26,464 nucleotides of DNA, taken from the IMG/VR virus record IMGVR_UViG_3300027763_000208, positions 1 to 26,464 of that record; one strand, written 5' to 3'. The stretch comes from a virus. Below the pieces are notes generated by a model. That model made no database searches, was not told the DNA's origin, and saw only the letters and a program-made list of their open reading frames with translations. Shown here piece by piece: positions 15,134 through 26,464 of the stretch. Every line of letters starts with the position of its first letter. The first letter of the stretch is position 1. The position numbers and the translations under genes are program-made.

Positions 15134-16111
15134 TTAGGCTACACAGGTAGCGAAGAATACTCCAAGGTCAGCAGCAACGAGCTTGTTGTCGAACGCAATC
15201 TGCGACTCGATGTAAGTTGCAGCGTTCTGCTCTAGGCGATACTGCTTAGTTCCAACAGTCAAACCTAGACCCTCAGAAACTCCGCGCCACTGGAAAGAGT
15301 AACCAGCAGAAGGAGTTAGAAGACCAGGGTTGCTTGGTGCGTAAACCAGCATTGCTGCCTTGCCAAAGGCGAAGCTGAATGAACCAGTCTGACCTTCGTT
15401 AGCAGTGTTCTTTACAGCCTTAGCAACAAGAACTTCATCTACACCGAATAGCTGTGCAAGATACTGAGTGTCTGGAACATCACGACCAGTGTACTTGACA
15501 CGGTCAATGATGTCTGGGTGGTTGCGAAGAACTCGGTAAGCATCGTAACCAAGAACTAGCTTGTTAGCTTCAAAACCAGTGGTCTGAAGAATGTAGCCCT
15601 TAGCAATCTCAATGTCCTGAATGGGGTCTGAGTTAGCTAGGTCGCTCCACTGGATAAACTGGTTAGTTGAAGGTGAACTGGCAACACCAGTGTAATCCCT
15701 GCCCCAAATACCAGTAGTAAACCAGTCAGTAACAAACTGGTTCTCTAGACGGTTCAAGATGAGCTGAGCGGTGAACTTAGCTGCATCACGCATAGGGTCA
15801 AGAGGGTTGTCGAAGTTTGCCATAGTCTGGTCGCCAACTGCCTTCTTCACAGCGTAAACATCTGCGTAGTAAGAGTCGGTGGTTAGACCATAACCTGAGG
15901 TGGCTGCTTCTGAACCATCTGCACGAAGTCGTGCATCGTCACGGAACCAGTCTTCCTTGGTATACTTGAAGTATAGGTTGCTCTGCTTGTCCACTGGAAC
16001 GATAGGGAATACCTTCGTAGCAATGAAGTTATCAGCAGACTGAATGTAGGCTACCGAAGCGTTCGTTAGAATCGCATCGACGTGAACCTGATTGATGGAT
16101 GGCTGTGGCAT
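15134..16111 (-). CDS. Major capsid protein
   Basis: This 325-aa protein is a HK97-fold-type major capsid protein of the class with 'PSINQVHVDAILTNASVAYI....FIATKVFPIVPV', then 'YFKY.KEDWFRDDA..RA.GSEA' and 'SY.ADVYAVKKAVGDQT..N...P.D......A.F...L'. The family builds the icosahedral shell. There is no obvious N-terminal delta domain, consistent with a separate scaffold (the 16525-17373 gene). Flanks agree: cement protein upstream, hairpin terminator downstream. AAGGTAAAAATAA precedes the ATG. Confidence 0.92.
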   Translation of the reverse strand: MPQPSINQVHVDAILTNASVAYIQSADNFIATKVFPIVPVDKQSNLYFKYTKEDWFRDDARLRADGSEAATSGYGLTTDSYYADVYAVKKAVGDQTMANFDNPLDPMRDAAKFTAQLILNRLENQFVTDWFTTGIWGRDYTGVASSPSTNQFIQWSDLANSDPIQDIEIAKGYILQTTGFEANKLVLGYDAYRVLRNHPDIIDRVKYTGRDVPDTQYLAQLFGVDEVLVAKAVKNTANEGQTGSFSFAFGKAAMLVYAPSNPGLLTPSAGYSFQWRGVSEGLGLTVGTKQYRLEQNAATYIESQIAFDNKLVAADLGVFFATCVA

Positions 16112-16129
16112 TTATTTTTACCTTATTCC

Positions 16130-16525
16130 TTACGCAGCTCTTGAAGGGGATTTGCAGTCGAACAGAATGGTGATAATGTCACCAGCTGCAGTAGCTGCGG
16201 TTAGTGCTGTTCCAAGAACATACTGAGTGGTGTCAGTTCCAGCAGTGATGCTCTTGACTCGACCAGTGGTTACAGTGATGCCCACCAAAGCACCTGCTGT
16301 GATTGCGGCACTTGCTACAGCCTTTGATACACCAGAAATAGCAACTTCAGCAGTCTTGCCCGAAGTTGGAGCGTTCTGAAGAATACCTAGTGGAATGTCG
16401 GTGATTGCAGCAGCGAAAGTAGTTCCGCCAGTTGCGACCTTTACAACATGATACTGCTTTGCCGATAGGTCGGCGGTAGCAGCAAGTGAAATTTTGTGCT
16501 GTGAATCTACATATTCAAAAGCCAT
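16130..16525 (-). CDS. Capsid cement/decoration protein (DUF2190-like)
   Basis: This 131-aa protein has the pattern 'LAATADLSAKQYHVVKV......F..A.....PLGILQNAPTSGKTAEVAISGVSKAVA..AITAGA.V' and 'YVLGTALTAA.AAGDIITILF'. This is the beta-barrel family of small capsid cement proteins encoded next to the major capsid gene, which stabilise the expanded shell. It overlaps the scaffold stop by 1 nt (TAATG) and lies 18 nt before the capsid gene. Confidence 0.85.
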   Translation of the reverse strand: MAFEYVDSQHKISLAATADLSAKQYHVVKVATGGTTFAAAITDIPLGILQNAPTSGKTAEVAISGVSKAVASAAITAGALVGITVTTGRVKSITAGTDTTQYVLGTALTAATAAGDIITILFDCKSPSRAA

Positions 16526-17373
16526 TAGTTAGCACCTTCCTGTGCGTATCGTTTAGCGAGTTCAGGGTTGCTGTCAAGCACATGCTCAACACCCTGCTCG
16601 ATAGTCTTTACTACGCCACTCTCGACAAGCGACTTAGCGAGGCTGCGAGCCTCATCCATCACCGAGTTGGTGCTGGAAGTTGATGAAGTGCCGAACTCCT
16701 TGAGCAAACCTGATTCTGACATCTGAGCGTCAGCTGCGAGAAGAACGCTCTCAACAGTCTTAGCTAGTTCAGCATCTACTGCGGTTAGTCGGCGGAGAGC
16801 TGGAGCAACCACTTCGTGGTCAATTCCTACGCTCTTGAAAGTTTCTTTCGACTTGGCGATAGCTTCGCCATCGAGTCTGATGTCACGCTCTTTGCGAAGT
16901 TCGGCTGACTGGGCTTTGAAAACCATAGCCATAACCTCTTGCTGTTCGGCTGGTAGAGCTTTGATGCTCTTGGCAACCTCATCAGGCATATCTTCCATAG
17001 CCATAGCTACTTCATCGGACATTTTGTAGCCCATCTCGACAGCTTCTTCGCCAGTTTGCATAGCCTGAATTTCTTCAAGCTTCATTGCGAGGTCAGCTGC
17101 TTGATTCTTAGCTGCTTCTAGAGCTGCTTCGAGTCCTGCGACCTTTTCCTCGTAACCATCTACTGCCTTGGATACTGCGAGGTCAATTTGCTCTTGTGTA
17201 GAGTTCAAACTATTCTCCTCAATTTTGCCCTTAGCGATTTGCGGTTGGGCTTCTGGAAGTGCTTCTTCGGCACTTTTCATTACTAGGAAACCATCGTGTA
17301 AGTGAGCAGCCCTGTCGACTCCAGAAGTTTCAAGCACTTCTAGATTTACAAGCTTTTTGGTTGGTCTACCCAT
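16525..17373 (-). CDS. Putative scaffolding protein
   Basis: This 282-aa protein is acidic and largely helical. The ATG at 17373 is chosen because AAAGGAAC lies upstream; an in-frame start 31 codons earlier would run into the promoter region. The N-terminus (LEVLETSGVDRAAHLHDGFLVMKS) is a short motif also seen at the front of phage head-morphogenesis proteins. The middle (residues about 60-115) is a coiled coil, and a Ser/Thr linker leads to a helical tail. Position just before cement and capsid genes fits a scaffold removed by the protease encoded upstream. Confidence 0.75.
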   Translation of the reverse strand: MGRPTKKLVNLEVLETSGVDRAAHLHDGFLVMKSAEEALPEAQPQIAKGKIEENSLNSTQEQIDLAVSKAVDGYEEKVAGLEAALEAAKNQAADLAMKLEEIQAMQTGEEAVEMGYKMSDEVAMAMEDMPDEVAKSIKALPAEQQEVMAMVFKAQSAELRKERDIRLDGEAIAKSKETFKSVGIDHEVVAPALRRLTAVDAELAKTVESVLLAADAQMSESGLLKEFGTSSTSSTNSVMDEARSLAKSLVESGVVKTIEQGVEHVLDSNPELAKRYAQEGAN

Positions 17374-17416
17374 CGTGTTCCTTTGGTTCAGTATCAAAGA
17401 TACGAACATTTTCAAT

Positions 17417-17437
17417 CTAAGTAGCCTTAGACACGCC
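17417..17437 (-). promoter_or_regulatory. GGCGTGT + inverted repeat element, copy B
   Basis: On the minus strand GGCGTGT leads into the perfect inverted repeat CTAAG-GCTA-CTTAG, 58 nt before the scaffold start, in a true intergenic region between divergent genes. A TATCTT -10-like box lies at 17402-17397. This is the best-placed copy for a late promoter that would drive the capsid genes. Confidence 0.5.
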
Positions 17438-17458
17438 CAAAACAACTCAGAGCAAAAC

Positions 17459-17479
17459 TTATTCAATAAATGGTTTATT
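17459..17479. promoter_or_regulatory. Overlapping palindromes (operator-like)
   Basis: TTATT-C-AATAA (17459-17469) and AATAAA-TGG-TTTATT (17465-17479) are two perfect, overlapping inverted repeats. They lie between the divergent scaffold and small-gene units, next to the likely -10 TAGAAT (17503-17508) of the plus-strand unit. The layout suits binding of a dimeric repressor, but no regulator is identified and AT-rich palindromes arise easily by chance. Confidence 0.35.
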
Positions 17480-23532: not shown

Positions 23533-23800
23533 TTGCTAAATCTTCAGCATTTAGTTCTTCGATACCTCTAGGTTCACCGCATGCAGCATAAGTTGCTTCA
23601 ATCAAACCTCTATAAGCCTCTGGTTCAGACCACTCGTAAGGAATCTCAATCATTGAACCTTCAGGGGCTTGCTCTAGCTCAATTTTTAGTCTTCCAAAGG
23701 CATCGGCAGTTTCTGCTGTAATTGGCACACCGCTTAGGTCAATAGGCAAACCTTTTGCGGCAGCAAGTTGTAACTTTACTAAATCATCAGAGTTTATCAT
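23504..23800 (-). CDS. 98-aa acidic protein downstream of the zeta-type kinase
   Basis: MINSDDLVKLQLAAAKGLPI and the following DLSGVPITAETADAFGRLKIELEQAPEGSMIEIPYEWSE form an acidic protein with helical ends. I recognise no family. The ATG overlaps the kinase stop (TAATG), so the two are co-translated. Coupling to a zeta-type kinase makes a partner or antitoxin role thinkable, but it does not look like epsilon antitoxin and no fold evidence supports this. Confidence 0.65.
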   Translation of the reverse strand: MINSDDLVKLQLAAAKGLPIDLSGVPITAETADAFGRLKIELEQAPEGSMIEIPYEWSEPEAYRGLIEATYAACGEPRGIEELNAEDLANGKTPITFR

Positions 23801-24879
23801 TACTCATTACCTTTTTCTAAGAATGCATCGTAGCCAGCTTGGTCGGCAACTATAAAATTTCCACTTGCATCCGACTGTCCAATAATTTTAGCAGCACCTT
23901 TTACCGATGAGTCAATCAACATAATACCACCTTGAAACATTTTATTTTCTGCAGCAACTGCAAAGGTATTTGAAACATCTCGGTGAGTATCATAAACAAC
24001 TTCTTTAGGCACGAAACGACGCTCGCTAGATTTTAGGCTTCGTGCTTTTGAACGCTCCCATGCTTCCGCTGTGGGAATAGTAAAGTAAACTCCTCTAACT
24101 TTATAACCACCAATTTCAGCTTCAGTAATTTTCTTACCAAGCTTATCGGGGCTTGAATCGCCAGTGCCATCAAGGATTACATCTTGCTTATTTTTGATTG
24201 CTTGAGATTGAATTTGTTTTGCAACCATCGAAGATTCTTCGTGAGCAAAGGCGGCAGCATTATAAAAACCAGCATCATCACCTTTCCGCATTCGCTCAAA
24301 CTCAGGTAAATCACTTTTTACATTGTCAGCATTTACCACAACAGCCTGACGACTATCTGGGTCAGGAACACCAGGAGCGATGCCTGACCTTAGTGCAGTT
24401 GATTTTCCTGCTGCTGGACCACCACCAAGCATAAAGAAAGTTGGGTCTTCAGACACAGGAACACCTCTGGTAGTTTCTTCTACAATTTGACGATGAAGTT
24501 TTGCTCGCTCATCGCTAACTCGATAACCGCCACCTTCGGCAGGAACAAGATGATGCCAAAGCGAACTTTCAGGAGTCAAGGAATCTTTAGTTAACTCTCC
24601 ATCAACAAAGTTGCCTTGTTTGTCGATATTGACAACTTCAGGAATCCCTGCTTTATAACCGCCAGTTGCTTCAGGGCAGATTACTCGACCTTTACTATCA
24701 CGAGGCATTGCTCGCTTTACTCTACCTGCGTTCATATCTTTTTTACGCTGAATGGCAAGTTTGCGATATGCTTCAGACCTACCTTTGCCACCATGAAAAG
24801 TTTGGTCGTGCTGGTCACCTAAATGCTTTTGAAAAGCATCACTAGAAAAAGTTAGTGGTCTACTTGAAGGGATTAGCAT
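23800..24879 (-). CDS. Zeta-toxin-type P-loop kinase with phage head-type N-terminus
   Basis: This 359-aa protein begins at the ATG at 24879 (AGGA overlaps the upstream stop, TAGGAC); an in-frame start at 24918 would overlap the upstream gene. The N-terminus has HLGDQHDQTFHGG (19-31), a tag-like motif found near the ends of phage head and portal-region proteins. The Walker A GGGPAAGKST (152-161), NADNVKSD (183-190), HEESS (213-217) and VILDGTGD (234-241) define a zeta-toxin-like kinase. Zeta kinases phosphorylate UDP-sugars; the substrate here is unknown. Location in the capsid operon suggests packaging or a late role. Confidence 0.8.
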   Translation of the reverse strand: MLIPSSRPLTFSSDAFQKHLGDQHDQTFHGGKGRSEAYRKLAIQRKKDMNAGRVKRAMPRDSKGRVICPEATGGYKAGIPEVVNIDKQGNFVDGELTKDSLTPESSLWHHLVPAEGGGYRVSDERAKLHRQIVEETTRGVPVSEDPTFFMLGGGPAAGKSTALRSGIAPGVPDPDSRQAVVVNADNVKSDLPEFERMRKGDDAGFYNAAAFAHEESSMVAKQIQSQAIKNKQDVILDGTGDSSPDKLGKKITEAEIGGYKVRGVYFTIPTAEAWERSKARSLKSSERRFVPKEVVYDTHRDVSNTFAVAAENKMFQGGIMLIDSSVKGAAKIIGQSDASGNFIVADQAGYDAFLEKGNE

Positions 24880-24886
24880 AAAAGTC

Positions 24887-26464
24887 CTATTCCGATAGAG
24901 TTGAGAGTTTATGTGCAACTAAAGTATCTGTCGCTTCATCATTGCGATAAACTCTAATAACAGCAGCAGGTTCATCTTCAGTTCCAGAAACAGTCACGTC
25001 AGAATCAGGAACATTGTATTTTCCATCTCTGATGATTCGTTCAATCTTGCCTCTCGCAGTTCCACCTGAAGAGTTCCAAGAAACCATACTGCCTACTTTT
25101 GCTTCTTTATAAACACCTTCCATAACAGGTTCAGTTGAAAGATGTGATTCAAAACTTTGAACCATAGTTGCAGTTAGAGCAGTTATATCGATTTCGTAAG
25201 CATCAGCAACCGCATCACCAATAATAGCTCGCAACTGCCACTGCCACATTGAGTGTTGGTCTAGTCGCTCAGCAAGAAAATTAGCGATACCTTGCTCATT
25301 TAGAGAATCAGCTAAAGCAAACGACTTAGAAAGGCATCCTCGCAACTGCTCATTAGCAACATAAAGAATTTGGCTCATTAGTCCAGAATCATTTGTTTCA
25401 GGAATCACCATTGAAGCAATCGAACAGTTGAAGTCGGTTAGTCTGAAAGGAGCGTCGTAGTTTAGTTTGCGAATACTTTCAGCGATAGGGTCTATGCTTG
25501 AATCTGCATCTTCATAAATCTTGCCAAAAAGTTTATGAAACTGATAAAAATCTACACCAGTAACATTCCAATGGAATCCTTGAGCAATAAATCGGAAAGC
25601 TACTACCTCACCAATAAGTTCACAAAGCTCAGCAGCTAGACCCTCTTTGGTAGGTTCAGTAATGTATGCTGCATGCTTTGAGATTTCAATGTTGCCAAGG
25701 AAGTCTTTTGGCATGATGAAAGGTGCAGACTTCTTGATATGTTTGATGCGGTTGATTTCAGCTTCACGTTCAAGAGCAGCATTTTCGCTATCAAACTCGC
25801 CTAAATGCTTTTTGCCATCTTGCGAGAACAGATGCCATTTGCCATCGATTTCGTGAATCATTTTCGAGAAAGATACTCGACCAGTTGCATCATCGTCAGA
25901 CTTTTCAAGGTCAGCAGCGAAACGATTAGCAGTCCCACCAATGCTTAGACCTCGAATCTCACCTTGTTTGATAAGCTCCCATGCCCAAGGTTCCCAAATA
26001 ATACCTAGAAATGGTGTGCCAGCAGGAAATGTGTATTCGGTATCACCCTCGGGATGTTTCACTGGCACAGTTACTTCATAAGGCCATGTTGCACCTTCAA
26101 CCCACTGACCTGCAACGATGTCAGTATTGTGCTGAAGTCTGATGTCGCGGTCATCTTGGTTTAGATACTTCCAGAACGCTTGCTGAACTTCTTGGCGGTC
26201 ACTCCACTCGCCATGAGCATCAAGTGAATCAGGAACATACCAAGGTGAAAAGGTATAGCGTTCTTCTTCGTTGATTGCTTTCGTAATAGAGCTGAAAGTG
26301 GCAATACGAGGCTTTTTAGACCACTCGGTGCTATCTATATGAACCGAGTTTGAAGTCGGTGAATCTTTTAGAATAGAAAGTATTTGAACACCATCATCAT
26401 CAAGTTCGACATCTACTTTATCTTTATTGTCAAGAGAAAGGTCGTTCAAGGTAGCAGTCAGTTC
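24887..26464 (-). CDS. XkdF-type prohead protease / Dps-like / Tudor-like fusion (partial)
   Basis: The frame is open through the right edge, so the true start lies outside; the first in-window start codon is TTG 26449 (residue numbers from there, 520 aa). Three parts are visible. Residues about 60-180: XkdF-type serine protease with QHN (H107) and RGLSIGG (S169). A linker with 'WHLFSQDGKKHLGEFDSENAALERE' follows. Residues about 265-415: a Dps/ferritin-like helical bundle with H293 in GFHWNVTG, H305, D320 and E324, while the usual fifth acid is G309. Residues about 449-518: a Hva1-Tudor-like barrel (KVGSMVSWNSSGGTARGKI..., EDEPAAVIRVY). It would mature proheads, and the Dps part could bind DNA or iron. 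Confidence 0.85.
   Translation of the reverse strand, partial: ELTATLNDLSLDNKDKVDVELDDDGVQILSILKDSPTSNSVHIDSTEWSKKPRIATFSSITKAINEEERYTFSPWYVPDSLDAHGEWSDRQEVQQAFWKYLNQDDRDIRLQHNTDIVAGQWVEGATWPYEVTVPVKHPEGDTEYTFPAGTPFLGIIWEPWAWELIKQGEIRGLSIGGTANRFAADLEKSDDDATGRVSFSKMIHEIDGKWHLFSQDGKKHLGEFDSENAALEREAEINRIKHIKKSAPFIMPKDFLGNIEISKHAAYITEPTKEGLAAELCELIGEVVAFRFIAQGFHWNVTGVDFYQFHKLFGKIYEDADSSIDPIAESIRKLNYDAPFRLTDFNCSIASMVIPETNDSGLMSQILYVANEQLRGCLSKSFALADSLNEQGIANFLAERLDQHSMWQWQLRAIIGDAVADAYEIDITALTATMVQSFESHLSTEPVMEGVYKEAKVGSMVSWNSSGGTARGKIERIIRDGKYNVPDSDVTVSGTEDEPAAVIRVYRNDEATDTLVAHKLSTLSE

Follow-up and report, generated by a model that had tools for sequence, protein, structure and literature searches.

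The window analysed here comprises 26,464 nucleotides of a linear IMG/VR virus record (IMGVR_UViG_3300027763_000208) and carries on its minus strand a frame that is open up to the contig end, with 525 visible amino acids and its start codon cut off. An alternative TTG start at position 26449 yields the 520-residue protein that was numbered in a preliminary description of this DNA; comparison with the related contig L259 places the true start outside the window, with approximately 18 N-terminal residues missing, and residues are numbered here on the 525-residue frame. The preliminary description had read a head protease, a Dps-like ferritin domain and a Tudor-like barrel in this single frame, and all three were recovered above the Pfam gathering score: Peptidase_S78_2, Ferritin (residues 293-417, E 9e-9) and Hva1_TUDOR. 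The residues it had singled out (H107, S169, H293, H305, G309, D320 and E324) are correct and correspond to positions 112, 174, 298, 310, 314, 325 and 329 of the longer numbering. The positions of these features, and of the other head genes of the same phage, are given in Table 1.

Table 1. The fusion gene, its parts and the associated head genes in the window; residue numbers refer to the 525-residue frame.
Feature	Residues	Position	Strand	Support
Fusion ORF: XkdF-type protease, small module, Dps, Tudor-like		24887-26464	minus	L259 70% identical over 444 aa
Peptidase_S78_2 (XkdF-type) protease domain	60-182	25919-26287	minus	Pfam E 6e-10; phrog_3017
Protease His	112	26129-26131	minus	conserved RLQH in relatives
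Protease Ser	174	25943-25945	minus	conserved GxSIGG in relatives
Small module (GKWHLFSQDGKKHLGEF...EINRIK)	204-245	25730-25855	minus	phrog_2859 E 0.025; copies in other head proteins
Dps domain	263-425	25190-25678	minus	Pfam Ferritin; AlphaFold2 model; Dps chain matches; ligand census
Dps ligand H298	298	25571-25573	minus	ligand census
Dps ligand H310	310	25535-25537	minus	ligand census
Dps ligand D325	325	25490-25492	minus	ligand census
Dps ligand E329	329	25478-25480	minus	ligand census
Hva1_TUDOR (Tudor-like) domain	458-523	24896-25093	minus	Pfam E 4e-8
Zeta-toxin-type kinase gene, directly downstream of the fusion ORF, ATG at 24879		23800-24879	minus	Pfam Zeta_toxin E 1e-24
Motif KHLGDQHDQTFHG, close to the beginning of the Zeta frame; one copy of the 'HDQ' tag that separates domains in these head modules		24790-24828	minus	
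Uncharacterised head-linked ORF		16525-17466	minus	
Cement protein		16130-16525	minus	Phage_cement_2 E 1e-7
Major capsid protein		15134-16111	minus	phrog_1005 E 8e-91
Head module, whole		15134-17466	minus	same order after a free-standing Dps in L101 and L158

The Peptidase_S78_2 match spans positions 5-125 of the 126 in the profile, the head-maturation-protease families of PHROGs match residues 49-205 (phrog_3017, head maturation protease, E 8e-13), and H112 and S174 are conserved among the aligned relatives. The domain is encoded within a head module that includes the major capsid and cement genes, and in the relatives L003, L007 and L158 the portal gene lies upstream of it; on this homology and gene order rests its assignment as the putative head protease of the phage. 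The XkdF-type proteases of cultured phages (Arthrobacter phage Kovu, gp20 region, and Microbacterium phage ValentiniPuff, gp7) are about 57% identical to the window protein in the protease domain and are likewise located between portal and capsid genes, but they have no Dps domain. Among 50,697 phages, no record covered 80% of the window fusion protein. The naming of these proteins varies between records, the XkdF-type domain being found at the C-terminus of proteins labelled 'RNA ligase' or 'aldolase' in several of them and 'capsid maturation protease' in others (for instance Kovu gp20, L162 11278-12411, and phrog_14859), which is likely an inconsistency of annotation.

The phage Dps family phrog_3636 of PHROGs matches residues 275-415 of the window protein (E 1e-15), a phage Dps profile of 51 sequences matches it with an E value of 5e-32, and the top PDB sequence matches of the fusion protein are Dps proteins (8ff9, E 5e-12). 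Structure prediction, which had been proposed as a check of this region, returned a confident Dps fold: the AlphaFold2 model of residues 239-445 (pLDDT 88, pTM 0.84) shows the four-helix bundle with helices as in Dps and the short BC-loop helix, and Dps structures rank top against it in Foldseek and VIA-align (VIA-align Z about 21 to Dps chains). The model of the full-length protein supports the Dps part only, the protease and Tudor parts being poorly predicted (mostly pLDDT <70), and the segment preceding the Dps domain is predicted to be disordered. DNA condensation, a role raised in the preliminary description, is conjectural.

The ferroxidase site of Dps lies between two subunits, and in E. 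coli its ligands are H51, H63, D67, D78 and E82. In the window protein H298, H310, D325 and E329 take the places of H51, H63, D78 and E82, and G314 stands at the position of D67. The earlier count of one acid lost and four ligands kept is therefore right as to the residues, but the loss carries little information: the D67 position is variable across all phage Dps relatives, and among 80 related sequences encoded on genome contigs, of which nearly all are cellular, it is M in 44, E in 30 and D in four. With the nearest cellular Dps also lacking D67 (M or E instead), the notion that this loss makes the window Dps special was ruled out. The remaining ligands are almost invariant in a census of 65 distinct phage Dps (H51 in 64, H63 in 65, D78 in 65 and E82 in 64), the sole exception being the Dps of L002, where H51 is replaced by S and E82 by Q. 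The fold, the sequence profile and these four ligands are common to the window Dps and the Dps family (PA0962, V. cholerae Dps, MrgA; PF00210), from whose members it differs by being part of a head protease and by its place in the maximum-likelihood tree, which separates all sampled phage Dps, as a single clade, from the cellular ones (SH-aLRT 100). The fused Dps is under purifying selection, with dN/dS values of 0.036-0.118 across six close pairs that are similar to those of the attached proteases; between the window and L259, a pair in which the synonymous sites of Dps are saturated, pN comes to 0.158 for Dps and 0.157 for the protease. Since the ferroxidase site is shared by two subunits, the conservation of its ligands speaks for continued dimerisation, at the least, of the fused domain.

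A search for the same fusion in other phage contigs showed that it recurs. An independent contig of 53.8 kb (L259) contains a complete protease-Dps ORF of 482 aa, which aligns with the window protein without a gap and has the same kinds of gene behind it as the window fusion (Zeta, VRR-nuclease and exonuclease-like). A chimeric contig or a frameshift that joined two genes, to which the run of the window ORF into the contig end might point, has virtually no probability left, an assembly chimera being excluded by the intact fusion of L259 and by L002, which together with many S78-Dps contigs is independent of the window. The domain order given in the preliminary description exists in the window but is not fixed: L002 encodes protease, Tudor, Dps and Zeta in a single frame with Tudor before Dps, L259 has no Tudor domain, L003 has protease and Tudor without Dps, and in many relatives the Tudor-like domain is encoded as the next gene after the protease. 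These differing layouts indicate that modules are gained, lost and reordered around one and the same protease.

Dps is also joined to head proteins of other types. A HAD-Dps-S78 fusion was found in L082 and, by a scan of viral contigs, in at least seven more; Dps-S78 fusions follow the portal gene in L116, L121, L126, L140 and also in L165, a locus in a betaproteobacterial MAG; and S78-Dps fusions precede the capsid gene in L109, L110 and L112-L115, the S78 domain in these three arrangements being the HK97-type protease. Giant proteins of 1,667-1,859 residues (L122, L125 and L149) combine portal and head-protease family matches with a Dps near the C-terminus. Elsewhere Dps is a gene of its own: it is the immediate neighbour of the S78_2 protease gene in L101, L102, L158 and L159, and of a portal gene of the phrog_776 type in many other loci, a portal of this family accompanying Dps in 40 loci. 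When one representative was taken per 90%-identity cluster, Dps was fused to a head protease or located directly beside a portal or protease gene in 35 of 48 clusters (13 protease-fused, 20 touching a portal gene and two touching a protease gene, with one further Dps 3 kb from a protease gene), a fraction valid for this clade only, as the sample was picked by similarity to the window Dps. The tree, evaluated by a quick method, requires at least five changes (gains or losses) of protease fusion, and the Dps of the window clusters with those of L002 and L082 (99), although the attached proteases are of different families.

The free-standing phage Dps known from Gratiaviridae, Lactobacillus plantarum phages and phiEco32-like phages (phrog_3636) are phage-borne, as is that of the window, but they are single-domain genes, and in the cultured phages examined the free Dps genes are surrounded by genes of nucleotide metabolism or by unrelated ones, away from the head genes. 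Against this background the head-linked clade stands out. The non-head setting fits the published interpretation of phage Dps as oxidative-stress proteins (PMC8008677, PMC6669764).

Several further regularities were observed around these genes. The order terminase, small genes, portal (phrog_776), Dps and a giant ORF of about 1,500-2,000 aa with hardly any recognisable domain is kept in L084, L091, L135, L145 and some 36 further loci. Dps is fused to DUF5824 (PF19141) beside the portal in L083, L091-L096, L100, L105, L118 and L119, and DUF5824 is the next gene after Dps in L135 and others. A TAG codon closes the Dps frame of L111 (G020:C1:11842-12273), beyond which the frame continues open for 1,977 codons in all, a possible case of stop-codon readthrough or recoding. 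Zeta-toxin-type kinase domains are regular constituents of these head modules (the window, L002, L009, L048, L101 and L259) and have protease, Dps or minor head proteins as their fusion partners. The small module of the window protein, which also matches separate head ORFs, belongs to a phrog_2859-related element that recurs across head modules with no other relationship, within their portal, protease and Zeta proteins (at the portal C-terminus in L112, in the N-terminal part of L122, L125 and L149, and at 3103-5169 in L101).

A motif of the form KH..GQHDQSTHG(N/S)WA, here called the HDQ motif, occurs 196 times in its strict form in 57 XkdF-protease loci, and was found neither in approximately 298,000 residues of other Dps loci nor in shuffled sequences. 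It sits between domains (MuF, ART, Zeta, GNAT), in up to four copies per protein that are mostly about 160-260 residues apart; examples, besides the window copy, are L002 (residue 357), L048 (317-3112) and L044 (1354-4227). The motif is possibly a linker, a targeting tag or a processing site, whereas a general role as cleavage site of capsid proteins is doubtful, the capsid, cement and protease ORFs of L101 and L102 containing no copy. A search of open-licence papers retrieved no report of it.

Prohead proteases of tailed phages act inside the prohead, as established for HK97 and T4, and a domain fused to one should thus be enclosed with it. The head-module setting of the fusion fits the delivery into the prohead that had been proposed earlier, and enclosure of the Dps part is probable. 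We favour, as an evenly balanced judgement, the reading that the fusion is virion cargo, with Dps being carried into the prohead by the protease and handling iron or peroxide near the phage DNA. The XkdF-type protease would enter the prohead with its attached Dps, and here also with the Tudor-like domain; the Dps part, with its two-subunit site, would most likely still pair or assemble; and it could bind iron and oxidise it, either within the capsid or, after ejection, in the next host, whereby peroxide and iron damage to the phage DNA would be limited. The iron function of the fused Dps falls just short of an even chance in our estimate, and its release by self-cleavage, also suggested earlier, is somewhat unlikely. 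Dps is favoured as an internal cargo because proteases act in the prohead and because the head modules of this phage group encode domains of a kind described in virion-packaged or polyvalent proteins (MuF-ART, Zeta-kinase, GNAT and zincin-like); the MuF-ART and Zeta proteins of the same head module are, moreover, of a kind injected by other phages. The presence of the fusion in independent contigs, the recurrent ties of Dps to head genes, the kept ligands and the purifying selection on the fused Dps speak for this reading as well. Several points count against this reading: the two ligands lost from L002, which show that a fused Dps can forfeit its ferroxidase site; the common self-digestion of prohead proteases, in which the Dps part might be shed or degraded; the location of the free Dps of the examined cultured phages outside the head genes; and the assignment of S78_2 as the head protease by homology and gene order.

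The L002 protein, which retains the fusion despite these losses, would also agree with a role in assembly only, in which Dps is an oligomerising or scaffold-like part that places or counts proteases in the prohead and iron chemistry is irrelevant. The fusion of Dps to three unrelated protease or portal types and its frequent position right after the portal gene point the same way, but ligands that are near-invariant in the phage census exceed the needs of a purely structural part, and Dps is missing from close relatives, L003 among them, that do have protease and Tudor; we regard this role as unlikely. A low probability is likewise given to Dps being one of several head-carried modules (ART, Zeta kinase, GNAT, zincin) that are ejected into the new host, in the manner of polyvalent proteins, where it would guard the incoming DNA or counter the host's oxidative response. 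Ejection of this kind would suit head modules in which MuF-ART, Zeta, GNAT and SprT-like domains are split by the repeated HDQ motif, as well as L002, where this motif connects Dps to Zeta, and polyvalent proteins are a described class (PMC5512222); the window fusion, however, lacks the HDQ motif between its protease and Dps parts, a protease fusion is an unusual carrier for that class, and a Dps dodecamer would need to be unfolded for passage through the tail. Finally, the occurrence of free Dps in cultured phages outside the head regions, in part amid nucleotide-metabolism genes, and the published oxidative-stress interpretation would be in line with a Dps that counters oxidative stress in the infected cell and owes its fusion or neighbourhood to late expression alone, yet expression timing by itself hardly explains the repeated fusion changes and the ties of most clusters to head genes, and this reading is quite improbable.

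The proposed carriage of Dps in the virion has partial parallels. Virion-packaged multidomain proteins of the polyvalent or MuF-fusion type are a described class (Iyer et al. 2017, PMC5512222); like the window-type fusions they are multi-domain and encoded with head genes, and they are predicted to enter the virion, although that paper mentions neither Dps, ferritin, Tudor nor zeta toxin. Disparate catalytic domains in one polypeptide encoded beside virion genes are likewise found in L002 (protease-Tudor-Dps-Zeta) and in L082 and its relatives (HAD-Dps-S78). Encapsulins with ferritin-like cargo, which combine an HK97-fold shell with an internal ferritin-like domain (PMC9321382, PMC6668986), resemble the window system by analogy only: the window belongs to a true phage, whose genes include those for portal, protease and tail, in a record that is classed as virus and encodes a phage capsid protein, and its putative cargo is attached by covalent fusion to the protease instead of by a shell-binding peptide. 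The only ferritin-like virion protein reported in the papers retrieved is gp217 of a Vi01-like phage, identified by Phyre2 only, encoded by a separate gene and linked to the tail by the authors (PMC10892097). A search of open-licence papers retrieved no description of Dps fused to a head protease, which may nevertheless have been described elsewhere.

What is new is the putative ferritin-type cargo on the head protease; the separate parts and virion-packaged multidomain proteins were already known. To our knowledge, iron- or DNA-guarding proteins inside the heads of tailed phages are not an established idea. With Dps joined repeatedly and independently to head proteases or portal proteins of three kinds, the presence of a mini-ferritin in some capsids becomes a specific claim that can be tested, and some phages probably do load one. 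More tentatively, many uncultured tailed phages may load a working mini-ferritin into the capsid, via a head-protease fusion or a portal neighbour, the virion thus having its own defence against iron and peroxide. If true, this would be the viral counterpart of ferritin-loaded encapsulins, and it would bear on the survival of virions under oxidative damage, on phage iron traffic and on the relation of ferritin-loaded encapsulins to the HK97-fold capsids of phages.
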